From positions 194,477-258,476 of the forward strand of contig NZ_DS989904.1 in NCBI RefSeq assembly GCF_000155595.1: DNA of 64,000 nucleotides. The letters are read 5' to 3'. Both the position numbers and the translations under genes were made by a program. Below are positions 11,901 to 34,379 of this stretch, one piece after another (positions within the stretch are counted from its first letter, which is position 1; each line of letters opens with the position of its first letter). The notes under the pieces are model-generated. The model saw only the letters and a list, made by a program, of their open reading frames with translations. It ran no database searches and had not been told where the DNA came from. This DNA comes from Synechococcus sp. PCC 7335 (GTDB taxonomy: Bacteria; Cyanobacteriota; Cyanobacteriia; Phormidesmidales; Phormidesmidaceae).

Positions 11901-12610
11901 TAGAAGGGATTGACCGTTTCGCGTGCCTGAAAAAACACGTCTGGGTTTTGAGCGGTCCCTCGCAGTACGGGCCGGTCGGGTGTGAGTGCTCGCTCCCGGT
12001 GAGCCAACATACCAGAGGGATCTAGTAGGGCGCGTAGATCTTCGTCCTTAAGCAGCTCGATCTTTTGCACCTCGTGAGAAGTGCGGAAACCGTCAAAGAA
12101 ATGGAGGAAAGGAATGCGGGTATCAAAAGTGGCGCGGGTGGCGATCGCGGCCAAATCGTGAGCTTCTTGTACCGACGCTGAACACAGCAGCGCACAACCC
12201 GTCATCCGCGTGGCCATCACATCGCTATGATCGCCGAAAATAGACAGGGCCTGGGCTGCCACTGAGCGGGCCGCAATGTGGATGGCTGTAGGAGAGAGTT
12301 CTCCGGCAATCTTGTAGAGATTGGGAAGCATTAACAACAATCCCTGAGACGCTGTAAATGTTGTAGTTACCGCCCCCGCCTGCAATGAACCATGGAGAGC
12401 ACCCGCTACCCCTGCCTCACTTTGCAGTTGCACAATGGTCGGCACACTTCCCCACAAATTAGGTTGTTCCATGGTAGACCAAGCATCAGCCCACTCTGCC
12501 ATGGGAGAAGACGGCGTGATTGGATAAATCGCTACCACCTCATTTAGACGGTAGGCTACCCGAGCTACCGCTTCGTTACCATCTAATGTTGCAAATTGGC
12601 GAGTTTTCAT
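8960..12610 (-). CDS. nifJ: Pyruvate:ferredoxin (flavodoxin) oxidoreductase NifJ
   Basis: This 1216-residue single-chain PFOR converts pyruvate and CoA to acetyl-CoA and CO2 and reduces ferredoxin or flavodoxin. It begins with the pyrimidine-binding domain (YPITPSSPMAEWAD), then the gamma and CoA-binding domains. A two-[4Fe-4S] segment (CVQCGKCVMVCPHS and CTGCAICIDVCPAKN, about 690-770) is followed by the TPP domain with the proximal cluster motif CAGCGETPYIKL (about 845) and GDGWAYDIGYGG. All cluster cysteines expected for the family are present and length is normal (about 1170-1220). It is followed by the DHOD-like gene. In Klebsiella the NifJ-NifF pair feeds nitrogenase; a flavodoxin is encoded in the nif run here. 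The start has a strong GGAGG upstream. The enzyme is usually oxygen-labile. Confidence 0.97.
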   Translation of the reverse strand: MKTRQFATLDGNEAVARVAYRLNEVVAIYPITPSSPMAEWADAWSTMEQPNLWGSVPTIVQLQSEAGVAGALHGSLQAGAVTTTFTASQGLLLMLPNLYKIAGELSPTAIHIAARSVAAQALSIFGDHSDVMATRMTGCALLCSASVQEAHDLAAIATRATFDTRIPFLHFFDGFRTSHEVQKIELLKDEDLRALLDPSGMLAHRERALTPDRPVLRGTAQNPDVFFQARETVNPFYAHCPAKVQAAMDDFNRITSRCYKLFDYHGHPQAEQVVILMGSGCETVHETVDYLVAKGEKVGVIKVRLYRPWSAESFIASLPASVQTLAVLDRTKEPGSLGEPLYQDVVNTLVEQGRLDIRVVGGRYGLSSKEFTPAMVKAVFDNLAQAKPKNHFTVGIIDDVSHTSLTVDPEFTIEPDSVVRAIFYGLGSDGTVGANKNSIKIIGGNTDNYAQGYFVYDSKKSGSVTVSHLRFGPDPIRSTYLVEQANFVACHQWEFVDKYEVLSAAKQGATVLFNSPFSPVETWRRLPTQLQEIIQAKQLRVYGIDGAKVAREAGMKGRINTVMQVCFFALANVLPQEESIEQIKKSIHKTYGKKGKAVVEMNLQAVDRTLENLFEVPTGTQLEPATVGVVAAKSISKESGSTGVSDALSARFSTAMASAPAFVRDVLGPMMARHGDDLPVSALPCDGTYPTGTTQWEKRNVAAEIPVWDPDVCVQCGKCVMVCPHSVIRAKVYEPEQLASAPDSFKSTSARDRAWSDLQFTIQVAAEDCTGCAICIDVCPAKNKLEPKRKAINMEPQLPLREQERKNWDFFLELPNPDRQQLNLKKIGQQQLQEPLFEFSGACAGCGETPYIKLATQLFGDRMLVANATGCSSIYGGNLPTTPWSKNTNGRGPAWANSLFEDNAEFGLGFRIAIDQHIDQAIGLLTNLAASEASLLPTDLVQGLIGAAQMDEADIVEQRQRVEQLKTHLSQWRNQAEISPVVSRQLQSLESLADYLVKKSVWLIGGDGWAYDIGYGGLDHVMASGRNVNILVLDTEVYSNTGGQMSKATPRAAVAKFAAGGKPAPKKDLGLMAMTYGNVYVASVAMGARDEHTLRAFLEAESYEGPSLIIAYSHCIAHGIDMQKGLQQQKMAVDSGRWLLYRYDPRRSDLGDSPLMLDSRTPTLPVEATMYSENRFKMLARSNPDAAKQLLKDAQVDVDNRWQMYQYLAARPTQTQ

Positions 12611-13712: not shown

Positions 13713-15989
13713 ATGGTTGCAACTCCTCTAAGACCCTTAGTTCAAACTCAGGCAACAACTTCACAGCAAGCATGGGATGGGTTTGCCGCAGGCGCCTGGT
13801 GCGAGCAAATTGCTGTGCGCGATTTCATCCAGCTAAATTATCGTCCGTATGAGGGCGATCGCACATTTCTTGCAGAAGCTACCCCCCGGACTCAGCAGCT
13901 CTGGGCACAGGTGTCGGTGCTGATGAAGCAAGAACGCGAGCAAGGTATTTTAGATACCGATACCGCAGTGCCTACAGGTATCACGGCACATGAAGCAGGC
14001 TTCGTCGATGCAGGTTTAGAAGAGATTGTCGGACTGCAAACAGACAAGCCCTTGAAGCGAGCCATCATGCCCTTAGGTGGCATTCGCGTGGTGGAAAAGT
14101 CGCTGGAAGCCTATGGCTATGAGATTGATCCTGCTCTCCACGAGATTTTCACCAAATACCGCAAAACGCACAACGACGGCGTGTTTGATGCCTACACGCC
14201 TGAGATGCGTGCTGCGCGGCACGTTGGGATTATCACTGGCTTGCCCGATGCCTATGGTCGAGGTCGAATCATTGGTGATTATCGGCGCGTTGCCCTCTAT
14301 GGTATTGACCGACTAGTGGCCGACAAGCAGGCAGCGCTAGCTGCAACCAACGCGGCCACCATGTCTGAAGCGGTGATCCGCGATCGCGAAGAAATCAACG
14401 AACAAATTCGTGCTCTTAAAGAGCTGCAGGCGATGGCTGCCAAGTACGGCCAAGACATTAGCCGGCCGGCCACAAACGCCAAAGAAGCGATCCAGTGGAC
14501 ATATTTTGGCTATCTCGGCGCGATTAAAGAACAAAACGGCGCGGCAATGTCGTTTGGTCGCACTTCCACCTTCCTCGATATCTATATCGAGCGCGACTTG
14601 GCCAATGGCATCCTCACAGAATCAGCCGCGCAAGAGCTGATCGATGATCTGGTGATTAAGCTACGCATGGTGAGATTCCTACGTGCCCCAGCTTATAACG
14701 AACTCTTCTCGGGAGATCCGGTATGGGTAACCGAATCCATTGGTGGGGTTGGTGAAGATGGCAGACCACTGGTAAGCAAGTCCAGCTTCCGATTCTTGCA
14801 AACCCTCTACAACCTAGGGCCAGCACCTGAGCCGAACCTGACAGTACTATGGTCGGAGCAAATGCCCAAAGCTTTCAAACAGTTCTGCGCTCAAGTCTCG
14901 ATTGACACTAGCTCCATTCAGTACGAAAACGACGATCTGATGCGCCCGCTATATGGCGACGACTATGGCATTGCCTGCTGCGTGTCGGCCATGCGTATTG
15001 GTAAGCAAATGCAGTTCTTTGGCGCTAGGGTGAATCTTGCCAAGGCACTGCTGTATGCGATTAATGGCGGCAAGGACGAAAAAGCTGGCCAACAGGTCGC
15101 GCCAGTCACTGAGCCGATTACCACAGACACTCTCGACTATGACGAGGTAATGGCGAAGTTTGATCCTACCCTTGACTGGCTGGCCAACCTGTATGTGAAC
15201 ACGCTCAACGTAATTCACTTCATGCACGACAAATACTGCTATGAGCGGCTAGAAATGGCGCTGCACGATCCAGAAGTGTTCCGCACAATGGCTTGCGGTA
15301 TTGCTGGACTTTCTGTAGTGGGCGATGCGCTCTCGGCCATCAAGCACAGCAGCGTGAAAGTGTTGCGTAATGAAGACGGATTAGCCGTCGATTACGAGAT
15401 TGAAGGCGACTATCCGAAGTTTGGCAACAACGATAATCGCGTTGATAGCATTACTGCCGATGTGGTTACTCGCTTTATGAACAAGATTCGTAAGTGCCAA
15501 ACCTATCGAAACGCTACGCCCACTCAGTCGATTTTGACCATTACGTCTAACGTCGTTTATGGCAAGAAAACGGGCAATACGCCCGACGGTCGCAAAGCGG
15601 GTGAGCCCTTTGGACCAGGCGCGAATCCTATGCATGGGCGGGATACGAAGGGTGCGATCGCCGCCTGCGAATCTGTTGCCAAACTCCCTTATGAAGACGC
15701 CCAAGATGGTATCTCTTTTACTTTCTCAATCGTGCCCCAGGCGTTAGGCAAACAAAGCGAAGACCAGGTGAACAACCTAGTTGGCCTACTAGACGGCTAC
15801 TTCCACAACACTGGCCACCACATCAACATCAACGTGCTCAATCGAGACACTTTGCTAGATGCAATGGATCACCCAGAGGAATATCCGCAGCTCACTATTC
15901 GAGTTTCTGGCTACGCAGTAAACTTTATTAAGCTCACCCGCGAACAGCAGCTCGATGTGATCAGCCGGACGTTCCATGAACGGTTCTAA
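13713..15989 (+). CDS. pflB: Pyruvate formate-lyase (formate C-acetyltransferase) PflB
   Basis: This 758-residue glycyl-radical enzyme splits pyruvate with CoA into acetyl-CoA and formate without releasing electrons to NADH or ferredoxin. The adjacent catalytic cysteines are in [10 protein letters not shown] (about residue 421). The glycyl-radical loop RVSGYAVNF is near the C-terminus (Gly about residue 732). Length equals E. coli PflB (760). The ATG at 13713 follows AGGCAGG weakly; the first 25 residues are a variable extension. The activase gene overlaps its 3' end by 14 bp, so the two are translationally coupled. PFL is found in only some cyanobacteria and is destroyed by oxygen when activated, so it must work in anoxia. 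Confidence 0.97.
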
Positions 15990-16761
15990 TCAAGACTCTC
16001 ATTCGGATTCTCACTCAGACTCCCGTTTGGATGGTCAAAGCGGTCGAATTCATTCCGTCGAAACCTGTGGCACCGTAGATGGGCCGGGTATTCGGTTTGT
16101 GATTTTCACTCAAGGCTGTCGTCTGCGATGCCAGTATTGTCACAACCCAGATACCCGTGACCCTCACGGCGGAAAAGCAGTGACAGTGGAGGCGTTAATT
16201 CAAGAGATCAAACAGTATCGTACCTATATGCACTCTTCTGGGGGCGGAGTGACGGTTTCAGGCGGAGAGCCGCTGCTACAGCCTGAGTTTGTTAGAGAAA
16301 TCTTTCAGCAATGTCAAGCCGAGGGAATTCATACCGCGTTAGATACTTCCGGGTATCCTGATTTTGAGCGATCAAAGCCTGTTCTAGACTATACCGATCT
16401 TGTTCTGCTAGATATTAAGTCTTCTGATCCGAAAACATATCACCAAGTGACGCAAGTAGCCCTTGAGCCGACATTACGCTTTGCGAAGCATCTGAGTGAG
16501 ATTCATAAACCTATGTGGATTCGCTTTGTGCTAGTGCCTGGGTTAACCGACGCACCGGCGAATGTGGCAGGCGTCGCACAGTTTGCTAGTAGCCTCAGTT
16601 CCGTTGAAAGAGTAGATATTTTACCCTTTCATCAGATGGCCGCCTACAAGTGGGAAATGATGGGTTACAAGTATCTGCTGAAGGACACGCCTACGCCCAC
16701 CGCCGAGCAGATTCAGCAGGCCATCGATATATTTGCTCAGCATGGCTTGAGCGCGCAATAA
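15976..16761 (+). CDS. pflA: Pyruvate formate-lyase activating enzyme PflA (radical SAM)
   Basis: This 261-residue radical SAM enzyme installs the glycyl radical on PflB using a [4Fe-4S] cluster and S-adenosylmethionine. The cluster motif [13 protein letters not shown] (CxxxCxxC) lies at about 48-56, preceded by the family segment [17 protein letters not shown]. The SAM-binding GGEPLL follows at about 95-100, with [13 protein letters not shown] typical of PflA. The ATG overlaps the end of pflB, and the start region carries a three-copy 12-bp in-frame duplication giving repeated (D/S)SHSDS-type residues absent from the conserved core. Length fits the family (about 245-265). Confidence 0.96.
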
Positions 16762-21569: not shown

Positions 21570-23237
21570 ATGTTTTGTGAACAATGCGAACAAACCGCCA
21601 GTGGCGATGGCTGTCATCAGTTCGGAGCCTGTGGTAAAAGCCCGGAAGTAAATTCCATTCATGATTTACTGATTCACTGTCTGCGAAGTCTCGCCCCTGT
21701 AGCCCTACAAGCCAAAGCGATGGGCATAGATACGCACGAGGCAGATGTGTTTACCTGTGAAGCGATGTTTGCCACTATGACAAACGTAAACTTCAGTCCG
21801 AGCAGTCTAAAGACTTATGTAGAAAGCGCGATCGCGCACAGAGAACTCCTCAAAGAAACGATACAGACGCAGTCTCCAGAATCCATCCTTTTGCCCATCA
21901 TTGTAGACTTCGTGCCCGATTTAGACGGCAATCTCAGTGAGCAAGGTGAAAAGATTGCGCTGAAGTTTATCAGTCAGGTAGGCAAAGACGCGGTCGATAT
22001 TTTCTCGCTGAAGCTCACTACCTTATACGGACTTAAAGGCGCAGCTTCCTATGCTTTCCACGCTTACGAAGTCGGCCAAGAAGATGAAGCCATCTATCAT
22101 TTTGTTCATCGAGCGCTTGATGCCCTCCGTGATCAAAGCATGAGCGTAGAAGATTGGGTCGCTTTAACTCTTGAAGTCGGGGCGATAAACTTCCGCGCAA
22201 TGGAACTCCTAGATACTGGACATACCACTAGCTTTGGTCATCCGGTACCGACCAAAGTGTCGCTAGCGCCTGTTCCGGGTAAAGCCATTTTGGTTTCTGG
22301 TCATGACATTCGGCAGCTAGAAGCTATTTTGAAACAGTCCGCAGACAAAGGAATTACCGTTTACACCCACGGTGAACTGCTGCCTGCCCACGGCTATCCG
22401 AAGCTTAAGCAAACCTACCCTCATCTGTATGGGCACTATGGCACTGCATGGCAAAACCAAACTAAGGAATTTGCGAAGTTTCCAGGTGCGGTAGTGATTA
22501 CGACAAACTGCCTGATGCCACCACACGAAAACTACAACGACAAACTGTTTAGCATAGGGCCGGTGAGCTATCCGTATCTCACCCATCTACCCCCTGCCGA
22601 GCAGGGCATTCCAGATTTCACACCCGTGATTAACAAGGCACTCTCGCTGCCTGGTTTTAGTGAGGATGTTGCTGCCGCCACGCCGCCAAAGTCAGTAACT
22701 GTCGGCTTTGCCCACAACGCGGTGCTCAGCGTCGCCGATACGGTGATTGACGCGGTAAAGCAAGGACACATTCGCCACTTCTTTCTGGTGGGTGGCTGTG
22801 ATGGGGCTAAGCCAGGACGCACTTACTACACAGAGTTTGTAGAACAAGTGCCTGATGATTGTATTGTCCTAACGCTGGCCTGTGGTAAGTTCCGTTTCTT
22901 TGATCAAGATTTGGGTGAGATTGGCGGATTGCCTCGGTTAATGGATGTGGGGCAATGCAACGATGCTTACTCTGCCATTCAAATTGCGATCGCCCTTGCC
23001 GATGCTTTTGAAATGGATGTGAACGAATTGCCGCTGTCGATGATTCTCTCTTGGTATGAGCAAAAAGCAGTGGCAGTTCTGCTCACCTTGCTGCACTTGG
23101 GCATTAAAGATATCCGCTTGGGCCCAACTGTTCCAGCCTTTCTCTCGCCCAATGTTCTTCAGCTACTATCCGATACCTATCAGCTCAAAGCCATCACCGT
23201 CCCTGAACAGGATTTAGCCGCTTGTTTAGCAGATTAA
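21570..23237 (+). CDS. hcp: Hydroxylamine reductase / hybrid-cluster protein Hcp
   Basis: This 555-residue protein begins MFCEQCEQTASGDGCHQFGACGKS, the N-terminal four-cysteine cluster site of hybrid-cluster proteins. Hybrid-cluster ligand regions follow: VVITTNCLMPP, FLVGGCDGAKPGRTYYTEF and LACGKFRFFDQDLGEIGGLPRLMDVGQCND. Family members reduce nitric oxide and hydroxylamine and are expressed in anoxia or nitrosative stress. The length is normal (about 540-555). A GGAAAAG-type Shine-Dalgarno lies before the ATG. No hcr reductase gene is adjacent. The 288-bp gap before it has a minus-strand frame (21213-21476) I do not regard as real. Confidence 0.96.
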   Translation: MFCEQCEQTASGDGCHQFGACGKSPEVNSIHDLLIHCLRSLAPVALQAKAMGIDTHEADVFTCEAMFATMTNVNFSPSSLKTYVESAIAHRELLKETIQTQSPESILLPIIVDFVPDLDGNLSEQGEKIALKFISQVGKDAVDIFSLKLTTLYGLKGAASYAFHAYEVGQEDEAIYHFVHRALDALRDQSMSVEDWVALTLEVGAINFRAMELLDTGHTTSFGHPVPTKVSLAPVPGKAILVSGHDIRQLEAILKQSADKGITVYTHGELLPAHGYPKLKQTYPHLYGHYGTAWQNQTKEFAKFPGAVVITTNCLMPPHENYNDKLFSIGPVSYPYLTHLPPAEQGIPDFTPVINKALSLPGFSEDVAAATPPKSVTVGFAHNAVLSVADTVIDAVKQGHIRHFFLVGGCDGAKPGRTYYTEFVEQVPDDCIVLTLACGKFRFFDQDLGEIGGLPRLMDVGQCNDAYSAIQIAIALADAFEMDVNELPLSMILSWYEQKAVAVLLTLLHLGIKDIRLGPTVPAFLSPNVLQLLSDTYQLKAITVPEQDLAACLAD

Positions 23238-23455: not shown

Positions 23456-23478
23456 GTAGTTAGCCAGGGTCAGTGAGT

Positions 23479-25464
23479 ATGAATATCTGGGCTTCAATGC
23501 CGTTGCAAAAACAGATTCGAGGCTGGATTATCCATTACCCAGTGGCGATCGCAGCACTGTTTTGTGCTCTACTCACGCTTTCCGGCTGGCTGGCTTTAAC
23601 TCACAACTGGTTGGGGAGCGGCGTCGGTATCTTGTTTGCCGCCTATGTGATTGGGGGCTATGACAGCACCCGTGAGGGCCTAAACACGCTGTGGACTGAG
23701 CATGAGCTAGATGTCGATCTATTAATGATAGTGGCGGCGCTGGGTGCAGCGGTGCTGGGCCTGTGGCAACAACAGTATTATCTGCTGGTCGACGGGGCGG
23801 TCTTGATTTTGATCTTTGCGATCAGCGGTGCCCTCGAAGATATTGCCATGCAGCGCACAGAGCGGAATATTCATGGGTTGATGCAGTTGACACCAGAAAC
23901 GGCTAGACGCATACAGACCAACCAAACACAGGGCGAGCAAATACAAATCGTCGGGGTGCAAAAGCTGCGGATAGGTGATCGGATTTTGGTCAAACCGGGA
24001 GATCTAGTTCCTGCAGATGGCCTGCTGCAATCAGGCAAAAGCAGCCTCAATCAGGCTTCGATTACAGGAGAGTCTGTGCCAATAGATAAAACAATAGGTG
24101 ATGAGGTGTTTGCAGGGACACTTAACGGCAGCGGTGCCATTGTTTTAAAACTGCACAAGTTGCCTGAAAACAATCTCATTCAGCGGGTTATTCGATTGGT
24201 AGAAACCGCTAAGACAACCCGGCCCCCTTCTCAGCAGTTTTTAGAGCGTTTTGAGCGTGGCTATGCCAGAGTCATTGTTTTCATAACGCTGCTACTGCTA
24301 CTGCTGCCCCCTTTGTTATTGAACTGGGGATGGGAAAATACAATTTATCGGGCGCTGGTGTTTTTAGTAGTGGCCTCGCCCTGCGCTGTTATGGCTGCAA
24401 TTATGCCCACTTTGCTTTCTGGAATTGCACAGGGTGCAAGGCAGGGGATCTTGTTTAAAGATGGCGCTCAGCTAGAAATGATGGGAAAGGTCAATGCGAT
24501 CGCTGCTGATAAAACAGGCACGCTCACAATCGGAAAACTTCAAGTGTGCGACATTATTCCGGCGAGTGGCAGCACAGTCGCAGAGCTTCTCCAAACAGCG
24601 GCTTCCCTAGAAGCGTACTCCGAGCACCCGATTGCTCAAGCTATTGTAAGTGAGGCGCAGCATCAATCTCTCCCACTATTGCCTGTGGCAAATGTGCAAG
24701 CCAGAGCTGGCTTAGGGATTACCGGTACGCTAGAGGGAGCCATACTCAGAATTGGTAAGCAGCCCTTCGTCCAGGAAAATTTAATAACTTCAAACTCAAC
24801 AACTTCAAACTTGACGACTTCAACAGAAAACACCCTGGTTCAGGTTGGTCAACAAACCGAATCTGAGGGCAAAACCGTCATTTGGATTAGCCGACAAGAT
24901 CGGGTGATGGGACTGTTGATTGTCGCCGATCAAATTCGCCCAGAAGCGCCTGCGTTAATCAGGGCGCTGAAGCGCCTTGGCATTAAAACGACGATCATGC
25001 TAACAGGTGATAATGCTGCAACCGCTCAAAGCATTGCCCAAGTAGCAGGGATAGATCAGGTCTATTCAAATTTGTTACCTGAAGACAAAGTAGAGATTAT
25101 TCGTACATTACAACAGCAACATCATACGGTGGCAATGATTGGGGATGGTATTAATGATGCCCCAGCGTTAGCCCAAGCATCAGTGGGCATTGCCATGGGC
25201 GGCACTGGCTCAGATATAGCCTTAGAGACGGCTGATGTAGTGCTGATGGCAGATCGAATAGAGAAACTAACCCAAGCAATTCAACTGGGAGTAAAGTCAC
25301 AGCAAATTATTAAACAAAATCTGACGCTAGCAATGGTTTCGATTGTGTTTTTAATGGTGGCGAATTTCTTGGGCAGGCTGACCCTACCAGCGGGTGTATT
25401 AGGCCATGAGGGCTCTACCCTTTTGGTCACCTTAAACGGCATGAGATTGCTGAGAAATAAATAG
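23479..25464 (+). CDS. P1B-4-type heavy-metal translocating P-type ATPase (CoaT-like)
   Basis: This 661-residue membrane pump starts at ATG 23479; a GTG at 23473 is too close to the weak AGGGT ribosome site. It lacks an N-terminal HMA domain. P-type signatures are ITGESVP, DKTGTLT (phosphorylated Asp), SEHPIA, MLTGDNAATA and GDGINDAPALA. The transmembrane metal site is SPC (VVASPCAVMAA) rather than CPC. The last helices contain HEGSTLLVTLN. SPC plus HEG(G/S)T is the P1B-4 signature, whose members export Co2+, and in some species Zn2+, Fe2+ or Ni2+. Synechocystis CoaT is the closest well-known relative I recall. A 15-bp in-frame duplication (about 24787-24816) gives a Thr/Ser-rich insert in the nucleotide-binding domain. 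Confidence 0.9.
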   Translation: MNIWASMPLQKQIRGWIIHYPVAIAALFCALLTLSGWLALTHNWLGSGVGILFAAYVIGGYDSTREGLNTLWTEHELDVDLLMIVAALGAAVLGLWQQQYYLLVDGAVLILIFAISGALEDIAMQRTERNIHGLMQLTPETARRIQTNQTQGEQIQIVGVQKLRIGDRILVKPGDLVPADGLLQSGKSSLNQASITGESVPIDKTIGDEVFAGTLNGSGAIVLKLHKLPENNLIQRVIRLVETAKTTRPPSQQFLERFERGYARVIVFITLLLLLLPPLLLNWGWENTIYRALVFLVVASPCAVMAAIMPTLLSGIAQGARQGILFKDGAQLEMMGKVNAIAADKTGTLTIGKLQVCDIIPASGSTVAELLQTAASLEAYSEHPIAQAIVSEAQHQSLPLLPVANVQARAGLGITGTLEGAILRIGKQPFVQENLITSNSTTSNLTTSTENTLVQVGQQTESEGKTVIWISRQDRVMGLLIVADQIRPEAPALIRALKRLGIKTTIMLTGDNAATAQSIAQVAGIDQVYSNLLPEDKVEIIRTLQQQHHTVAMIGDGINDAPALAQASVGIAMGGTGSDIALETADVVLMADRIEKLTQAIQLGVKSQQIIKQNLTLAMVSIVFLMVANFLGRLTLPAGVLGHEGSTLLVTLNGMRLLRNK

Positions 25465-25836: not shown

Positions 25837-26169
25837 ATGAGACATCTACGAGAGGGTGCTGGCTTAAGAGCGCGAGTCGAAGAGATGACAGGTTTGCGAG
25901 CAGAGCATGTTGTGATGATGGGTGCGGCGACGGTTGTGTTGACGCCAGTTGTCTTGCCTTTGATGCGCCCTGTCCTAAAGGCCACCATTAAAACTGGCGT
26001 AATGGCTTTTGAGAGAACTAAGCATGCGATCGCCGAAACCGGTGAGATTCTGGCAGATATTGCGGCAGAGGCAAAGGCAGAGGCTCAACTAGAATCCTTG
26101 CTAGCCCCAGAACAGTTAGGAACAAACTCCGTATCTGCAGCAGTCGTAGACAGTGAAGAGGCTAGCTAG
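25837..26169 (+). CDS. DUF5132-type small membrane-associated protein
   Basis: This 110-residue protein has a single hydrophobic segment (about residues 25-50, HVVMMGAATVVLTPVVLPL) followed by a conserved RPVLKATIKTGV motif, an amphipathic helix and an acidic Ala/Glu-rich tail. The segment matches the DUF5132 pattern seen beside cyanobacterial metal P-type ATPases. The function is unknown. It is first of a plus-strand group with the HMA2 protein (53-bp gap) and a P-type ATPase. The start has GGGAG about 10 bp upstream, right after the 16-bp iterons. Confidence 0.6.
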   Translation: MRHLREGAGLRARVEEMTGLRAEHVVMMGAATVVLTPVVLPLMRPVLKATIKTGVMAFERTKHAIAETGEILADIAAEAKAEAQLESLLAPEQLGTNSVSAAVVDSEEAS

Positions 26170-26221
26170 GGAAAGGTTAGGAGCCAGCGAATAGCGAGTT
26201 GATCATTCGGAGGGTTGGATC

Positions 26222-26818
26222 ATGACGTTTATAAATAGTGATTCCCAAGGCCTAGTATCCGGTCAGCTAATATCCACTAAGACGACAGCTCAGTTGGGTA
26301 AGTTACTGGATGAATATAATGAGGTGGCCGTCATTTTACCGGTACTGGCAGGTTTGTTGGTAACCAATCGGCTGCAATTGCGAGGAGCCAATGCACTAAT
26401 AGCTAACTTAGTGATCGCGGCAATCTCTCGCCAAATTATTCATCAGCTAACGCAAGAGGCTGCCGTGATATCGGCTGGGGCGAACGGTGTGAGCGCAGTG
26501 GAGAAACCTAGCCCACTTGCAACTGAACCTGTCTATCAGGTAGATGAAGATTACAAAATTATGCATTCTGTAGCCGGGCGCATTCGGCTGCAGGTGAGAC
26601 AGTTGCAGGCGGATCGCAATTTTGCCAAGCGCTTGGAAAGACTGCTGTTAGAAGATCCGATTGTGTCTGGCGTGCGGATTAATCGGGCGGCAGCTTCTAT
26701 TGTGATTCAATATACGGCAGGTGAATTGTCAGAAGCTGAACTAGGTCTGCGTTTATTGCAAATTTTAGACGAGGCTGCTGCACCAGCGGTAACGACGACG
26801 GCAGCAGCAACTGCTTAA
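26222..26818 (+). CDS. HMA2-domain protein with N-terminal hydrophobic segment
   Basis: This 198-residue protein has a hydrophobic region at about 38-75 (VAVILPVLAGLLV and ANLVIAAIS). A C-terminal ferredoxin-like HMA2 domain (about 112-182) begins HSVAGRIRLQVRQL and has VSGVRINRAAASIVIQY. The classical CxxC metal site is absent; the same HSxxGRxRL motif occurs at the N-terminus of the next gene's ATPase. It may be a membrane-anchored accessory domain for that pump, perhaps metal delivery or protein docking (inference). GGAGG lies 8 bp before the ATG. A 36-bp gap to the ATPase supports an operon. Confidence 0.65.
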   Translation: MTFINSDSQGLVSGQLISTKTTAQLGKLLDEYNEVAVILPVLAGLLVTNRLQLRGANALIANLVIAAISRQIIHQLTQEAAVISAGANGVSAVEKPSPLATEPVYQVDEDYKIMHSVAGRIRLQVRQLQADRNFAKRLERLLLEDPIVSGVRINRAAASIVIQYTAGELSEAELGLRLLQILDEAAAPAVTTTAAATA

Positions 26819-26854
26819 AAGCGACGGCTCGAAATCTACTGTTTAGAATACGTT

Positions 26855-29200
26855 ATGAGCGATCAACCCGCGCAGCTTGTTCAAACGGGTGTCTTAGTAG
26901 GCCAACCCCGTGAACTTTTTGCCTGGCGAGTAGTCCATTCATTGCCTGGTCGAGTGAGATTGCGCGTACCTGCACTCCTAATCGCTACAGCTTGGCAGCA
27001 TAAAGTAAAAACGACATTGAATAAGACGGTGGGCGTCCGTTCGGTACGAATTAACCAGGCCGCCTGTTCAATGACCATTCAATATGATCCTGAGATTGAA
27101 TCTGCCCTCAAATTGCTACTACTCAAGCTAGAAGAGCGTTGTGGCTGCCAGTGTGATGAGAGCTTAGTGCAGTTTGCCTCTCTTCATTCTTCTTCAGCAC
27201 GTTCCTCAAAGAAGACGCTACCACCGATATCTCTTAAGGGGCAGACTCCTAAAAGCCAGACTCCTAAAAGTCAGACTTCTGAAGCTCACGCTGATCAAAC
27301 TTGGGCCGGGCTGAAGTTACCTGTGCTGGCTGCTGGACTGGCGGTTCTAAGTCGCTACAGCTGGCCATTGGAACTCAGATCGGGATTACGATCACTCTCG
27401 GCATTAGCACTGCTGGGGGCTGTTTTGCCGGTAGGCCAGCGCGCTTTTCGGAGTCTATCGGTCCATCGAAAATTCAACATTGACTGTTTGGATTTGCTTG
27501 CCCTTAGTCTTAGCGCCTGGCAGGGCAAGTTGCTCACACCTGCTTTGGTGCTGACCCTACATGAGCTAGGAGATACCATTCGAGAGCAAACCGCGCGCAC
27601 AACAGCGGTGCAATCTTCTAGCTTAGAAGATACGATTGGTCATTTTGCTTGGGTAAAGCTAGAGGCCGACGCGCCACCGCAGCAAATTCCGAGCGATCAA
27701 GTACAAATTGGGCAAACCGTCGTGGTTTATCCAGGAGAACAAATTCCAGTCGATGGTTCGGTACTGGTGGGTAAGGCCATTATTGACCAGCAAAGTCTCA
27801 CCGGAGAGGCGATGCCAATTGCAGGTCGTAGTGGCACGCAGGTGTATGCTTCTACCTTAGTGCGATCAGGTCAAATTCAGATTCGGGCCGAACGGGTGGG
27901 TCGCAATACTCGAGCAGCAGTGGGCTTGGAACTATTGCGGCAAGCGCCTGTTTACGATACCCGGATGGCGAACTACGCTGAGCAAGTGGCTGATCGTCTG
28001 ATTGTGCCGTCATTGTTGCTAGCCGGTGTGGTGCTGCTGACAACGGGTGATACGGCTCGAACAGCGGCGATTTTGACCCTAGACTTTGTCACTGGCATTC
28101 GCGTTTCTATTCCAATGGCTTTCTTGGGGGCGTTGAATCATACCACTCGGCATGGTGTGCTGATTCGAAGTGGTCGCACGTTGGAGAAGATAGCAGAGGT
28201 CGATACGATTGTCTTTGACAAAACTGGAACACTGACCCAGGGCCAAATTACGGTTGTTGATATTCAGCCTTTCAATGATGAAGCGGCCAGTGAGCACCAT
28301 CGTCAGTCGCTCAATGCAGCCGAAATTTTGCAGGTAGCGGCTTCTGCTGAACAGCGAATCAATCATCCTGTAGCGGCTGCGATCGCTCAGTACGCGCAGG
28401 CTCAAAATCTGCCAATGCTCTCGCGGGAGCACTGGTCTTATGAAGTAGGATTGGGCATTAAAGCACAAATCGAAGGTCGTAGCGTTTTGGTGGGCAGCGA
28501 GCGATTCCTACGCCAGTATGGAGTTGACTGGGCCGCTGATTGGACGGCGAATGTAATCACGCCAGAGACAGCAGTTGATTCTTTGATTTACGTTGCCTGT
28601 GAGGGACAGTTTTGGGGCACCATTCGCTATAGTGACCCGCTTCGATCAGAAAGTACGGAGCTGATCAAACGACTGCACAAAGAGTACGGCATCAAGGTCT
28701 ATCTGCTGACAGGAGACAATCCTCAACGGGCAATGCAAGTGGCTAATACGCTGGGGATTTCACAGCCACAAGTCTATGCCGAGGCTTTTCCAGAACAAAA
28801 GGCCCAGATCATTCAAGAATTGCATCGGGCGGGGCGTACCGTGGCCTTTGTCGGCGATGGACTAAATGATTCTATTGCTTTGGCCTACGCCGATGTCTCG
28901 GTTTCTTTCGCCAGAGGGGCTGAGGTTGCCCGAGAAACGGCTGATGTAGTGCTGATGGAAAACAATTTGCTGGACTTTTTAGAAATCATTGCGATCTCTA
29001 GGCAAACTCAACACCTAATTGAGCAGAATATTGGTCTGGTGGTGCTCCCTAACCTAATAGCGTTGGGTATCGCAACAACGCAAGGACTGCGGCCACTTAT
29101 TGCAACTGGCATTCATAATGGATCAGCGATCGCAGCTGGGCTAAATAGCCTTCGTCCTTTGTTGCAACATCGGCTAAATCCAAAGCGGATGGCAAGTTAA
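26855..29200 (+). CDS. P-type metal ATPase with N-terminal HMA2 domain, atypical TM metal site
   Basis: This 781-residue pump has an N-terminal HMA2 domain (about 23-100, HSLPGRVRLRVP) without CxxC, then a Lys/Thr-rich linker, membrane domain and catalytic domains with SLTGEAMP, FDKTGTLTQG, NHPVAAAI, LLTGDNPQRA and GDGLNDSIALA. The helix before the phosphorylation domain reads TLDFVTGIRVSIPMAF, so the CPC/SPC cysteine that normally binds metal is missing. This places it outside the Cu, Zn/Cd and Co groups; Mn2+ or Fe2+ transport, or a different substrate, is possible. The linker carries a 15-bp unit in three tandem copies (27242-27286). It is third in the DUF5132-HMA2-ATPase group and next to feo. 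Confidence 0.8.
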   Translation: MSDQPAQLVQTGVLVGQPRELFAWRVVHSLPGRVRLRVPALLIATAWQHKVKTTLNKTVGVRSVRINQAACSMTIQYDPEIESALKLLLLKLEERCGCQCDESLVQFASLHSSSARSSKKTLPPISLKGQTPKSQTPKSQTSEAHADQTWAGLKLPVLAAGLAVLSRYSWPLELRSGLRSLSALALLGAVLPVGQRAFRSLSVHRKFNIDCLDLLALSLSAWQGKLLTPALVLTLHELGDTIREQTARTTAVQSSSLEDTIGHFAWVKLEADAPPQQIPSDQVQIGQTVVVYPGEQIPVDGSVLVGKAIIDQQSLTGEAMPIAGRSGTQVYASTLVRSGQIQIRAERVGRNTRAAVGLELLRQAPVYDTRMANYAEQVADRLIVPSLLLAGVVLLTTGDTARTAAILTLDFVTGIRVSIPMAFLGALNHTTRHGVLIRSGRTLEKIAEVDTIVFDKTGTLTQGQITVVDIQPFNDEAASEHHRQSLNAAEILQVAASAEQRINHPVAAAIAQYAQAQNLPMLSREHWSYEVGLGIKAQIEGRSVLVGSERFLRQYGVDWAADWTANVITPETAVDSLIYVACEGQFWGTIRYSDPLRSESTELIKRLHKEYGIKVYLLTGDNPQRAMQVANTLGISQPQVYAEAFPEQKAQIIQELHRAGRTVAFVGDGLNDSIALAYADVSVSFARGAEVARETADVVLMENNLLDFLEIIAISRQTQHLIEQNIGLVVLPNLIALGIATTQGLRPLIATGIHNGSAIAAGLNSLRPLLQHRLNPKRMAS

Positions 29201-29355
29201 GCCAGCTCTATATAAGAAAAATAGAGAAAAAGCATATCTATAATTGCGCTAGTCTAATCAGAGCCGTGGTACTAATATGGTAGTTGGGAATCAAAGCCAT
29301 TAGTTAATTTTCAGCTTAGCCCGATATTATCTTGCAGCACGAGCGAGGCAAATCC

Positions 29356-29616
29356 ATGTCCCTCATTCATCTAGATAAGTCTGTTTTGCGTTTCCATATT
29401 CTTGAGCTTATGGAAGATGGTCACGCTGGCAATCAGCTAGCGTTGCTCGGGCTTAGCGCGGTATTACTAGGACCGAAGTTGCTGCCTACGCTGGCGAGAG
29501 CTTCTCGTCCTGTTGCCAAGCAACTAGTGAAAAGCGGTCATTCTTATCGCCCTCGAATGACACTAACAGAATGGATAAAGCAATCGCAGGGAAATAACTT
29601 AGACGCGGGCCGATGA
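29356..29616 (+). CDS. Small DUF5132-like protein, paralogue of the cassette's first gene
   Basis: From the ATG at 29356 (GAGG about 10 bp upstream) the product is 86 residues. Its segment NQLALLGLSAVLLGPKLLPTLARASRPVAKQLVKSG parallels the hydrophobic-plus-RPVLKATIKTG motif of the protein at 25837-26169. A TTG at 29332 is in frame but unlikely. It lies 155 bp after the ATPase and closes the cassette. The C-terminal part is basic. The function is unknown; the paired flanking of the ATPase by two related small proteins suggests subunits or regulators of the pump. Confidence 0.55.
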   Translation: MSLIHLDKSVLRFHILELMEDGHAGNQLALLGLSAVLLGPKLLPTLARASRPVAKQLVKSGHSYRPRMTLTEWIKQSQGNNLDAGR

Positions 29617-30237: not shown

Positions 30238-31026
30238 ATGGACGAAGCAGAATATGATAGGCGCATTGACGCTTTAGAGCGCTTTCCCGATCAGGATGAT
30301 GGCTATTTAGCCGCTCGTTCTTCGATTGTTTGTTCTTTAGCAATGACTTCAGTGGGTGACATTGTTCAAGTCGTCTCACTACGGGGCGACTCACAAACCA
30401 ACCGTCGCCTGATTGATATGGGCATTTCGGTGAACGTTCAAGGCACCATTATTAGCCGAGCAGAGGGTGGATTGGTGGTATTCGCTCGAGATGGCTGTCG
30501 GCTGGGCCTTGGTGCCACGATGGCACAGAAGATTTTTGTCAAGGTTCTTAACAGCCCTAGTCTCAATAAATCTTCTGCTAATGAATCTGCTTTTGGCAAA
30601 TCTACTTTTGGCCAAATTCCTAGGAGTCTAGAACCCTCTATGAATCAAACAACATCTGCGGAGCGAGATACTCAACCGCTTGAGGCTAAACCTTCTAGTA
30701 AACCCCTTAGTGAGCTGAGCGTAGGTGACTCGGGCAGCGTGGTGGGCTACGAAAAAGGCAGCCGGGCCTATCGCAAAAAACTGTTGGCTATGGGCCTTAC
30801 ACCTGGCACTGCTTTCACCATCACTCATCAAGCACCGATGGGCGATCCGATTGAACTACAAGTGCGTGGCTTTAAGCTGAGTCTGCGAAAGGGAGAGGCG
30901 GCCACGTTGCAGGTCGTGTCTAACTCATCTACCCATTCGGCTTCAGCAACAGCACTTGCTGATGAAGTGACGAATCTTGAACCTACTAGCGTCCCTCTCA
31001 ACCATAAGGAGAACCGCGATGAGTAA
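30238..31026 (+). CDS. feoA: FeoA-like protein with two FeoA domains
   Basis: This 262-residue protein carries two SH3-like FeoA domains. Domain 1 (about 36-103) has SVGDIVQVVSLRGDSQTNRR then LIDMGI. Domain 2 (about 158-228) has LSVGDSGSVVGYEKGSRAYRK then LLAMGLTPG and ends in LRKGEAATLQV. Single-domain FeoA (about 75-85 aa) is the norm. The linker contains a 15-bp tandem duplication (30586-30615). The ATG at 30238 gives a 35-residue leader before domain 1; an ATG at 30343 is the alternative, and neither has a clear ribosome site. It overlaps feoB by 8 bp. The protein is cytoplasmic and supports FeoB-mediated ferrous iron uptake. Confidence 0.88.
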   Translation: MDEAEYDRRIDALERFPDQDDGYLAARSSIVCSLAMTSVGDIVQVVSLRGDSQTNRRLIDMGISVNVQGTIISRAEGGLVVFARDGCRLGLGATMAQKIFVKVLNSPSLNKSSANESAFGKSTFGQIPRSLEPSMNQTTSAERDTQPLEAKPSSKPLSELSVGDSGSVVGYEKGSRAYRKKLLAMGLTPGTAFTITHQAPMGDPIELQVRGFKLSLRKGEAATLQVVSNSSTHSASATALADEVTNLEPTSVPLNHKENRDE

Positions 31027-33388
31027 TGATATTAGAAGTAACGATATTAGAAATGGAACAATTGCCCTAGTAGGTAATCCTAACTGCGGGAAAACTACTC
31101 TTTTTAATGCGCTAACCGGAGCAAATCAGCGGGTTGGTAACTGGCCAGGGGTGACGGTAGAGCGCAAAGAAGGCCGCTATCAATATGGCAACACAACCGT
31201 GACCGTTGTGGATTTGCCAGGGGTTTATTCCTTAGATGCAGATGAGCACGAAGGTGGATTGGATGAGGCGATCGCCTGTAAGTATCTCATGTCGAACCAG
31301 GCTCAGGTCATTGTCAACATTGTGGATGCGGCCAATCTGGAGCGCAATCTCTATCTCACCAGCCAAATACTAGACATGGAGCGCCCGCTGATTGTGGCAC
31401 TCAACATGATGGATGTGGCCAAAGAACACAATGTCTGCATCGACACTGAGCAGCTAGCGGCTCGGTTAGGCTGCCCTGTGATCCCGCTGGTGGCCTCTCG
31501 TGGCTGGGGCGTGGATCTATTACAGCGTAACCTAGACGAGTTTTTGGTTGCACCTCAGCTCGCCTGCGCGCAAGTTACGTATCCAGCGGTCATTGAAGAA
31601 GCGCTAAGCGCTCTAGCCCCTAGCCGCTGGGCATCGCTCCATCTGTTGGAATATGGTGAGCGTGCACTGACTGGCTCATTCGTCTGTCCTTCTATTACAC
31701 CTTCTATGGCAGAGTGTCAAACGCTGCAACAACCCTTGATTCAGCAGCGCGATCGCATCCACCAAACCCTAGGGGAAGATGTTGACATTACCCTAGCCGA
31801 TAGCCGCTATCGCTATGCTCATCAGCTCGCGCAGTCGGTTGCCAGTCGTCCCCAGGAAATTAGCTTTAGCACCTCCGATAAAATCGATCGGATTGTCTTA
31901 AATCGCTGGTTAGGCATTCCTATCTTCTTAGGTGTGATGTATCTGCTGTTCATGTTTTCTATCAACGTGGGCAGCGCTTTTATCGATTTCTTTGATATCT
32001 TTTTTGGCACTATCTTTGTAGATGGCTTGGGCACTCTGCTCGCGGCTATAAACGCCCCTGAGTGGATACAAGTTCTCCTCGCCGATGGATTCGGTAGCGG
32101 CATCCAGACGGTGGCCACCTTTATTCCGGTGATTGGCTGTTTGTTCTTGTTCATGGCCTTTCTAGAAGACAGTGGCTATATGGCCCGCGCCGCCTTTGTG
32201 ATGGATCGCTTTATGCGGTTTGTGGGTTTGCCCGGAAAATCTTTTGTGCCTATGATGGTGGGCTTTGGCTGTAATGTGCCAGCGATTATGGCGACTCGCA
32301 CCTTAGAGAGTCGGCGAGAGCGTATTCTCACAATTTTGATGAATCCTTTCATGTCTTGCGGCGCGCGCCTTCCAGTGTATGCCCTATTTGCCGCTGCCTT
32401 TTTCCCCGCAACGGGCCAAAATATTGTGTTTGCGCTCTATCTCATCGGTATGGGTATGGCGGTTTTAACTGGGCTGATCATGAAGCACACCTTACTTCAG
32501 GGCAAGGCGGTCCCTTTTGTGATGGAGCTACCCACCTATCACCTGCCAACACTCAAAGGCGTTTTGATTCGGACGTGGGAGCGACTAAAAAGCTTCATTC
32601 TCAGAGCAGGCCGTGTGATTGTGCTGATGGTGATGGTCTTGAGTTTGTTGAATGCCATCGGCACCGATGGATCTTTTGGACACGAGAACAGAGACAGTTC
32701 TGTTTTGAGTGCGGCCAGTAGAAACCTTACTCCAGCTTTTGCGCCAATGGGATTGCGACAGGAGAACTGGCCCGCGACGGTAGGACTCTTTACGGGCGTT
32801 TTTGCGAAAGAAGCGGTAGTGGGAACGTTGGATTCTCTCTATACGCAGCTAGGGGAGAGTGAGGCGATCGCAGCGGGCGTAGAGATTGAAGAGACTGCTT
32901 TTAGCTTTTTTGGCAATCTAGGTGAAGCCTTTGCCACGATCCCAGCCAATTTGGCAGAACTCTCTGGCACTGTTTTAGATCCGTTGGGCCTTTCGGTTGG
33001 TGATGTCAGCAGTCCAGAAGTGGCAGCCTCTGAGCAAGAAGTAGCCTTCACTACCTTTGGCCAGATGGCACGGCGGTTTGACGGACAGGCGGGTGCGTTT
33101 GCCTATCTGTTGTTTGTGCTAATGTACTTTCCCTGTGTGGCCGCAATGGGCGCGGTGTATCGAGAAACGAATGCCGGCTGGACGGTTTTTGTAGGTTTGT
33201 GGACAACGGGGCTCGCATATTGGAGCGCGGTCTGCTACTACCAAATTGCCACTATTGGTCGGCATCCGATGGGTTCACTGATGTGGATAGCCGGTCTGAC
33301 AGGAATTCTAGTCACCGCTTTTGTCGTTATGCGCGTTTGGCCTTCTCGCACCTTCTCGCAGGGTCTCCAAAACCCATCGGTCCGCTAG
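31019..33388 (+). CDS. feoB: Ferrous iron transporter FeoB
   Basis: This 789-residue protein starts at ATG 31019, within the end of feoA and behind AAGGAGAA. The N-terminal G domain has GNPNCGKTTLFNALTG (G1), NWPGVTVERKEG (G2), DLPGVYSL (G3) and NMMD (G4). A helical regulatory domain follows, then the membrane part (about 290-775) with FeoB hallmarks GFGCNVPAIMATRTLESRRER and MNPFMSCGARLPVYA, including the conserved cysteine. It imports Fe2+ across the inner membrane. Codons 2-11 contain a 15-bp tandem duplication (SNDIRSNDIR). Ferrous iron dominates in anoxia, in line with the neighbouring nif and fermentation genes. Confidence 0.97.
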   Translation: MSNDIRSNDIRNGTIALVGNPNCGKTTLFNALTGANQRVGNWPGVTVERKEGRYQYGNTTVTVVDLPGVYSLDADEHEGGLDEAIACKYLMSNQAQVIVNIVDAANLERNLYLTSQILDMERPLIVALNMMDVAKEHNVCIDTEQLAARLGCPVIPLVASRGWGVDLLQRNLDEFLVAPQLACAQVTYPAVIEEALSALAPSRWASLHLLEYGERALTGSFVCPSITPSMAECQTLQQPLIQQRDRIHQTLGEDVDITLADSRYRYAHQLAQSVASRPQEISFSTSDKIDRIVLNRWLGIPIFLGVMYLLFMFSINVGSAFIDFFDIFFGTIFVDGLGTLLAAINAPEWIQVLLADGFGSGIQTVATFIPVIGCLFLFMAFLEDSGYMARAAFVMDRFMRFVGLPGKSFVPMMVGFGCNVPAIMATRTLESRRERILTILMNPFMSCGARLPVYALFAAAFFPATGQNIVFALYLIGMGMAVLTGLIMKHTLLQGKAVPFVMELPTYHLPTLKGVLIRTWERLKSFILRAGRVIVLMVMVLSLLNAIGTDGSFGHENRDSSVLSAASRNLTPAFAPMGLRQENWPATVGLFTGVFAKEAVVGTLDSLYTQLGESEAIAAGVEIEETAFSFFGNLGEAFATIPANLAELSGTVLDPLGLSVGDVSSPEVAASEQEVAFTTFGQMARRFDGQAGAFAYLLFVLMYFPCVAAMGAVYRETNAGWTVFVGLWTTGLAYWSAVCYYQIATIGRHPMGSLMWIAGLTGILVTAFVVMRVWPSRTFSQGLQNPSVR

Positions 33389-33425: not shown

Positions 33426-33650
33426 ATGCTCATCGATGTCCAAAACTACATAGCTACCCACGGAACGGTTTCTGTTATAGATCTCTCTTATCGCTTTCAT
33501 ACAGATGCGAGTACTCTTAAACCGATGCTTAGCAAGCTTAGCCGTAAGGGTCGCATTCAGGCCGTACCCATAGCGACAAAATGTAAAGGCTGCACTGTCT
33601 GTGATTCGCTTCAACTAGAATGTTACCGGTGGCTCGAAGCATCAAAGTAG
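33426..33650 (+). CDS. feoC: FeoC-like winged-helix protein with cysteine cluster
   Basis: This 74-residue protein has a winged-helix pattern (MLIDVQNYIATHGTVSVIDL then LSYRFHTDASTLKPMLSKLSRKGRI), followed by CKGCTVCDSLQLEC. The spacing CxxCxxC-x6-C matches the Fe-S (oxygen-sensitive) loop of FeoC. FeoC members regulate FeoB stability or activity in enterobacteria. It lies 37 bp after feoB, completing a feoABC operon. FeoC is less common outside gammaproteobacteria, so this assignment rests on size, context and the four cysteines. Confidence 0.78.
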   Translation: MLIDVQNYIATHGTVSVIDLSYRFHTDASTLKPMLSKLSRKGRIQAVPIATKCKGCTVCDSLQLECYRWLEASK

Positions 33651-33842: not shown

Positions 33843-34379
33843 ATGTTGTCTGAACCGATGATCAATCGGCTAAACGAGCAGATCAATCTAGAAATGTTAT
33901 CGTCTCATCTTTATTTACAGATGAGTTCTTGGTGCGCTTATAAGGCATTGGACGGGTGCGCAGCTTTACTCAGACAGCATGCGGATGAAGAAATGGGGCA
34001 CATGCGTCGCCTGATCGATTATCTACAAGAAACGGGCGGACTAGCGCTAGTCGGCGGTATGCAGGCGCCACCCAAAGAGTTCAACTCCCTACAAGAGATG
34101 TTTGAAAAGGTCTACGCCCACGAACAATTCATTACAAGCAAGATCAATGATCTCGTGCATCTTGCTAACATAGAACCCGACTATGCCACGCTACAATTTC
34201 TGCAGTGGTATGTTGCAGAACAGCATCAGGAAGAGTTCTTTTTCAAAAGTATTCTAGATAAGATCACCCTGATTGGCACAGAAGATCGAGGTCTCTTTTG
34301 GATCGATCGTGAAATTGCTGCGCTAGCGGCGTCTGGGAGTAAGGAAGTAACTGCGATCGAGTCCACACCTCAAATCTAG
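33843..34379 (+). CDS. ftnA: Ferritin (non-heme, FtnA type)
   Basis: This 178-residue four-helix iron-storage protein forms 24-mer shells in the cytoplasm. Ferroxidase residues are visible in INLEMLSSHLYLQMSSWC, ADEEMGHMRRLIDYLQETGG and VAEQHQEEFFF. No heme-binding Met typical of bacterioferritin is apparent, so ferritin is preferred. A good AGGAG site precedes the ATG. It lies about 190 bp after feoC and converges with modBC. Ferrous import followed by storage would buffer iron for nitrogenase and the Fe-S enzymes. Confidence 0.93.
   Translation: MLSEPMINRLNEQINLEMLSSHLYLQMSSWCAYKALDGCAALLRQHADEEMGHMRRLIDYLQETGGLALVGGMQAPPKEFNSLQEMFEKVYAHEQFITSKINDLVHLANIEPDYATLQFLQWYVAEQHQEEFFFKSILDKITLIGTEDRGLFWIDREIAALAASGSKEVTAIESTPQI

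Follow-up and report, generated by a model that had tools for sequence, protein, structure and literature searches.

A DUF5132-associated P1B-type ATPase cassette of cyanobacteria with a cysteine-free membrane motif and a probable role in ferrous iron transport

The window analysed here is a stretch of 64,000 nucleotides from Synechococcus sp. PCC 7335 (contig NZ_DS989904.1, positions 194,477 to 258,476). At 25837-29616 of this window, four co-directional open reading frames (ORFs) on the + strand code in turn for a DUF5132 protein, a protein with an HMA_2 domain, a P1B-type ATPase and a small protein related to DUF5132. We propose that this cassette is probably an ATP-driven Fe(II) pump with its own membrane platform, belonging to a P1B-6-like lineage that lacks cysteine in the membrane metal motif. 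As the cassette recurs beside ferrous-iron uptake genes, a dedicated iron(II) pump, akin to those that load the iron-storage organelles of bacteria, is the most likely function, and as DUF5132 shares its layout and gene company with the mycobacterial PacL proteins, a pump platform organised by DUF5132 is proposed. The cassette is real and conserved, and it is without description in the searchable literature, in which the term DUF5132 occurs nowhere and which mostly leaves subscription journals outside its coverage.

The ATPase, its metal site and its lineage

Gene 3 (26855..29200, +; 781 amino acids, aa) is a P1B-type heavy-metal ATPase according to Pfam, TIGR01525, trees and predicted fold. 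The motifs DKTGT, TGE, HP and GDGxND are found at residues 455, 316, 504 and 667, eight transmembrane (TM) helices are predicted, and the match to TIGR01525 (heavy-metal P-type ATPase) scores 491 bits, well above the cutoff (346); that to the "cadmium family" TIGR01512 is marginal (316 vs 313.5 bits). The Pfam domains are an N-terminal HMA_2 (E 1e-8), E1-E2_ATPase and Hydrolase. The predicted structure (mean predicted local distance difference test, pLDDT, 78; predicted template modelling score, pTM, 0.64) displays normal P1B helices, and Cu and Zn P1B pumps come closest to it in fold.

In the fourth TM helix (TM4), translation and alignment place the motif DFVTGIRVSIP at residues 410-420 (28082..28114, +), with DFVTG in the place of CPC or SPC, just as a sequence-only reading of this DNA had claimed. 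Its label of a Cys-less ATPase stands for the TM4 site and not for the whole protein, in which six cysteines occur elsewhere (residues 71, 96, 98, 100, 211 and 582). Part of these form a CGCQC stretch at residues 96-100 (27140-27154), after the HMA_2 domain, which is absent in the relatives checked; in another locus (L043), the N-terminal linker of the ATPase is marked instead by a run rich in His.

The alignment revealed a strongly fixed site. D410 is carried by every family member (42/42) and every FezB-like pump (5/5) but by none of 17 other P1B pumps, while Arg or Lys at position 416 (R416 in the window) occurs in 41 of 42 family members, 5/5 FezB-like pumps and 0/17 other P1B pumps. T413 replaces the last cysteine of CPC: it is Thr in all 19 members of the DFVTG subgroup, and Cys in 5/5 FezB-like pumps. 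The last TM helix contains the pair H754-N755 (29114..29119, +, from the alignment); HN is shared by 19/19 of the DFVTG subgroup and by the FezB-like pumps, NN being found in most other family members. HN in this helix is given as a P1B-6 feature (PMC9374683), and the P1B-6 substrate is listed as Fe(II) (PMC7558416). The TM4 cysteine of P1B-6 pumps, retained in FezB-like ones, is missing from the cassette ATPase. In the predicted structure D410 lies at the break separating two TM4 segments, and D410, T413 and H754/N755 may be the metal ligands.

In a tree of 61 P1B sequences, the window ATPase fell into a clade of 39 without the CPC/SPC cysteines of TM4; sequences from plasmids of Gloeothece, Deinococcus and Methylobacterium belong to this clade too. 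A second tree, of 36 sequences with P2-type pumps as the root, placed the clade apart from CopA, ZntA and CoaT and as sister to FezB-like pumps. The ATPase, whose lineage had previously been left unplaced, can thus be described from these trees as probably P1B-6-like. Grouping with a known Cu or Zn group had been named as an outcome that would speak against the sequence-only reading; instead, the ATPase belongs to a clade of its own outside P1B-1, P1B-2 and P1B-4, sharing neither their CPC or SPC motifs nor a grouping with their characterised members. Identity as a Cu, Zn, Cd or Co pump was rejected by both trees.

The FezB-like sequences came from Cereibacter, Azospirillum, Arcobacter, Vibrio and one cyanobacterium (L075), the non-cyanobacterial loci being from plasmids. 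HMA_2 proteins and acidic-tailed small TM proteins are encoded in their clusters, some of which additionally contain feo genes, DUF2202 ferritin-like proteins or a sequence weakly matching DUF4405. The cyanobacterial locus (L075 in genome G370, family f20) encodes FeoB, flavodoxin, HMA_2, a DUF2202 ferritin-like protein, an acidic-tailed small TM protein and a FezB-like ATPase with the motif DYCCALKL. Small-genome cyanobacteria of the same family (L070-L072) possess a distant member of the cassette ATPase family (38-41% identity, DLGTGLRVSVP). It is flanked by a second P-type ATPase and by DUF5132-like proteins, and a DUF454-like protein is encoded close by.

Partner proteins and conservation of the cassette

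Gene 1 (25837..26169, +; 110 aa) was assigned to DUF5132 by PF17195 (E 2e-12), supported by alignment, hydropathy and co-occurrence with the ATPase. Its product has one TM helix (hydropathy peak at residues 25-43), followed by a cytoplasmic tail rich in Lys and in Ala/Glu. The protein is proposed to be a scaffold of PacL/FezA type. Gene 2 (26222..26818, +; 198 aa), whose relatives adjoin the ATPase, encodes a membrane-anchored protein with a hydrophobic N-terminal part and a C-terminal HMA_2 domain (PF19991, E 8e-9) without any Cys.

Gene 4 (29356..29616, +; 86 aa) was characterised by alignment, distribution and relation to gene 1, and gave no match in the Pfam search. Its start is most likely ATG 29356 (MSLIH..., a conserved start) rather than TTG 29332. 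Similarity to gene 1 was detected by BLASTP (2e-5) and by profile-profile comparison (hhalign, E 4e-7), the TM helix and a KP region being common to both. Gene 4 has an N-terminus of its own, with H5, H14 and E17 invariant and E20 near-invariant in the alignment ahead of the TM helix, and lacks the Ala/Glu-rich tail, which rules out a simple duplicate of gene 1. Judged from its sequence, the H-H-E-E element beside the membrane is a candidate metal-binding partner or Fe(II) site.

The gaps between genes 1-2, 2-3 and 3-4 amount to 52, 36 and 155 bp. The earlier description as a four-gene cassette in this order agrees with the presence of all four ORFs on the + strand and, for genes 1-3, with Pfam; two related small membrane proteins at its flanks are borne out by the similarity of genes 1 and 4, and the lack of CxxC in the HMA_2 domains of genes 2 and 3 held on a sequence check with relatives compared. 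A scan of the genome contigs found one locus only. PADLOC returned zero matches, and scans for promoters and terminators gave results equal to shuffles at best.

We examined the distribution of these genes in cyanobacterial genomes. Close ATPase relatives (E < 1e-100) were present in 52 of 386 genomes and DUF5132 in 54 of 373, with 46 genomes in common (46/52 of those with the ATPase; Fisher 9e-44). Full-length gene 4 was found in 19 genomes, every one of which contained the ATPase, about 6.5 kb or less away except in one genome (G109); in another (G131), gene 4 was present as a broken trace only. In the fetched neighbourhoods, the same genes surrounded the ATPase, their order and strand being sometimes altered. 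Non-conserved neighbours, the other outcome named beforehand as adverse, were therefore not what co-occurrence, neighbourhoods and the distribution of gene 4 revealed; the anticipated conservation of the four-gene order applies to gene content around the ATPase, and not consistently to order and strand.

In Nostocaceae and others (L055, L057-L061, L063 and L064), a paralogous set was observed, consisting of two or three HMA_2 proteins, an ATPase and DUF5132. These ATPases contain a DFATG or DLCTG motif and NN in the last TM helix, and feo is not near; several Nostocaceae genomes with this set gave no FeoB_C match at all. The paralogous set possibly handles another substrate.

Iron neighbourhood and the competing explanations

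In the window, the cassette is followed on the + strand by genes for FeoA (30238..31026; two FeoA domains, PF04023), FeoB (31019..33388, an inferred start, the longest ORF running from TTG 30977; FeoB_C at G000:C1:226902-227060), FeoC (33426..33650; PF09012, E 7e-16) and a non-heme ferritin (33843..34379; NF007638, 213 bits vs cutoff 178; PF00210). A feoB gene occurs no more than 8 kb from the DFVTG-type ATPase in 14/24 genomes and 10/17 genera, with 0.1 expected. The neighbouring feoB is full-length in the window, L039, L043 and L044, short in L051 and L052, and split in L045, L047, L049 and L056; since all three forms adjoin the cassette, the link spans different feoB types. In the split form (L045, 87-2136; likewise L047, L049 and L056), a FeoB_N GTPase of 198 aa and a membrane part of 487 aa are encoded by adjacent genes. 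Ferritin stands beside the cassette in the window and L039; in L048, the gene that comes directly after it is a ferritin-like one of the DUF2202 type. An FtnA homologue occurs in only about 12% of cyanobacterial genomes (PMC7762939). The adjacency to feo had earlier been read as suggesting Fe2+ or Mn2+; as the link recurs well beyond the window, Fe2+ is clearly favoured.

The window as a whole represents an anaerobic and nitrogen-fixation island. It comprises genes for an acyl-CoA-synthetase-like protein (1216-3996), AdhE (4898-7636), PFOR (8960-12610), PFL (13713-15989) and its activase (15976-16761), and hybrid cluster protein (HCP, 21570-23237), followed by a second P1B ATPase, the cassette, feoABC, ferritin, modABC, nifEN and nifK. 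The second ATPase (23473-25464; SPC and HEGST), directly upstream of the cassette, groups with CoaT (P1B-4) and is outside the conserved cassette. The segment 34437-49138 holds fused modBC, modA, cysK, a MoeB/HesA-like gene, fused nifEN and nifK, so that feo and the iron cassette border on a nif cluster. The distance between nifK and the ATPase is about 18 kb in the window and about 15 kb in G008. General nif linkage was rejected because many cassette genomes are without nifK; the linkage is local. A search for conserved fermentation neighbours at the relatives' loci gave one acyl-CoA-synthetase-like match only (L053).

A model can be proposed for the four proteins. In the ATPase, the hard ligands D410, T413 and H754/N755 would replace the Cys-Pro-Cys thiolates within the membrane. 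The DUF5132 protein, as a PacL-like scaffold, would stabilise and cluster the pump, probably through contacts with HMA_2 domains, and gene 2 could contribute a further HMA_2 domain, anchored in the membrane, for docking or for handing over iron. The H-H-E-E element of gene 4, next to the membrane, might offer an Fe(II) site. Together with FeoABC and ferritin, the pump would clear cytosolic Fe2+ when ferrous iron enters under low oxygen, the Fe2+ leaving through the plasma membrane or entering an internal, ferrosome-like store.

Several observations weigh against this reading. The binomial p of 2e-27 for feoB proximity ignores shared ancestry, and feoB is not nearby in 10/24 genomes (a few of these on short contigs). 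A Fur box was searched for and none was found. The sister position to the FezB-like pumps is supported by 94/98, just below the star threshold, with long outgroup branches; those pumps' clusters appear to fit published fez content, their fez status resting on gene content. True homology of DUF5132 to PacL is unsupported (hhalign probability of 10% against a DUF1490 protein), which leaves an analogy of layout, and the probabilities against YtxH-like proteins of fez-like clusters (80% and 61%) are only moderate.

A stronger version nested within the preferred reading, that the cassette builds ferrosome-like storage vesicles, with the ATPase loading Fe2+ into the lumen, the products of genes 1 and 4 residing in the vesicle membrane and gene 2 supplying the HMA_2 partner, we regard as rather doubtful. 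The sister relationship to FezB-like pumps and the shared company of HMA_2 proteins, acidic-tailed small TM proteins, feo and ferritin-like genes would be accounted for, and the anaerobic setting matches the use in anaerobiosis proposed for ferrosomes (PMC12016538); yet a FezC-like DUF4405 protein is missing from the cassette, the ATPase lies outside the FezB clade proper, and the cassette is known here from its genes. Mn2+ as substrate, or another hard divalent such as Mg2+ or Co2+, is unlikely. Asp, Thr, His and Asn ligands would suit Mn2+ as well as Fe2+, and FeoB-type neighbours might carry Mn2+ too, above all the short and split variants, which are just 24-46% identical to the window FeoB; against this stand complete FeoABC with ferritin in the window and L039, canonical FeoB in L043 and L044, and the published listing of P1B-6 as Fe(II) (see above). 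That the ATPase exports Zn, Cd, Cu or Co like any ordinary pump, its motif having drifted and its neighbours being there by chance, is highly improbable: the generic models do match (TIGR01525, and TIGR01512 by a small margin), but the clade is separate from P1B-1, P1B-2 and P1B-4, the motif is fixed rather than drifting (D410 in 42/42), DUF5132 and gene 4 are dedicated partners, and the feo proximity is non-random.

If the pump is Fe(II)-specific, a missing cyanobacterial iron-handling module would be named. More tentatively, a FezB sister without TM4 cysteine, together with DUF5132, might form a cyanobacterial ferrosome-like compartment or PacL-like iron platform that stores or vents Fe2+ for nitrogenase and fermentation enzymes under low oxygen; were this so, P1B pumps could evolve a thiol-free metal site made of Asp, Thr, His and Asn. 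P1B pumps have been classified and understood through cysteine or histidine metal sites, and a branch with fixed Asp, Thr and Asn(His) offers a handle on the origin of hard-metal selectivity.

Comparison with known systems

The motifs of P1B-4 exporters are SPC (TM4) and HEGxT (last TM helix). The cassette ATPase is likewise a P1B pump and lacks both motifs, whereas its upstream neighbour at 23473-25464 is of P1B-4 type. Fe2+ is exported by the P1B-4 members PfeT, FrvA and CtpD (PMC7762939).

The likeness to ferrosome fez clusters (Grant 2022 and Pi 2023, as cited in PMC10979944 and PMC12574912) and their P1B-6 pump FezB extends to the sister ATPase clade, HMA_2 proteins, acidic-tailed small TM proteins, feo and ferritin-like neighbours, HN in the last TM helix, and the Asp and Lys/Arg of TM4. 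Differences are Thr for the TM4 Cys, DUF5132 where fez clusters have YtxH-like or other small proteins, and the extra H-H-E-E small protein. R. palustris has six fez genes, and FezC, a DUF4405-like cytochrome, is a component of fez clusters (PMC12016538, PMC10979944); Pfam and family-model searches found no FezC-like DUF4405 match among the cassette proteins, and for this reason we do not count the cassette among the fez clusters. Full membership was rejected on this ground and on the sister-clade position of the ATPase.

Mycobacterial PacL proteins have one TM helix with GxxG and Glu/Ala repeats, contact the N-terminus of the pump, and stabilise and cluster P1B6-like pumps (PMC9374683, PMC13043812), among which CtpC has been counted (PMC9374683). 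In both systems, a small one-TM protein with an Ala/Glu-rich tail is encoded beside a P1B6-like ATPase, as gene 1 is here, and the N-terminal domain of the pump lacks CxxC. Unlike the cassette ATPase, CtpC retains CPC and handles Zn; DUF5132 is distinct from DUF1490, Pfam detecting neither DUF1490 nor the related DUF6110 in gene 1, and is devoid of the C-terminal His metal motif of PacL. DUF6110 proteins accompany P1B-6 pumps elsewhere. A possible rule emerges, by which P1B-6-like pumps are paired with a small TM and Ala/Glu protein: DUF1490 and DUF6110 from the literature, YtxH-like proteins and DUF5132 from this analysis. Such a rule makes DUF5132 and HMA_2 proteins testable as platform or organelle proteins. 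Because the TM4 cysteine, DUF4405 and DUF1490 are all missing, we place the cassette as a variant beside the P1B-6/FezB and PacL systems rather than as a member of either, with partners whose layout is, by analogy, like that of the PacL and fez scaffold proteins.

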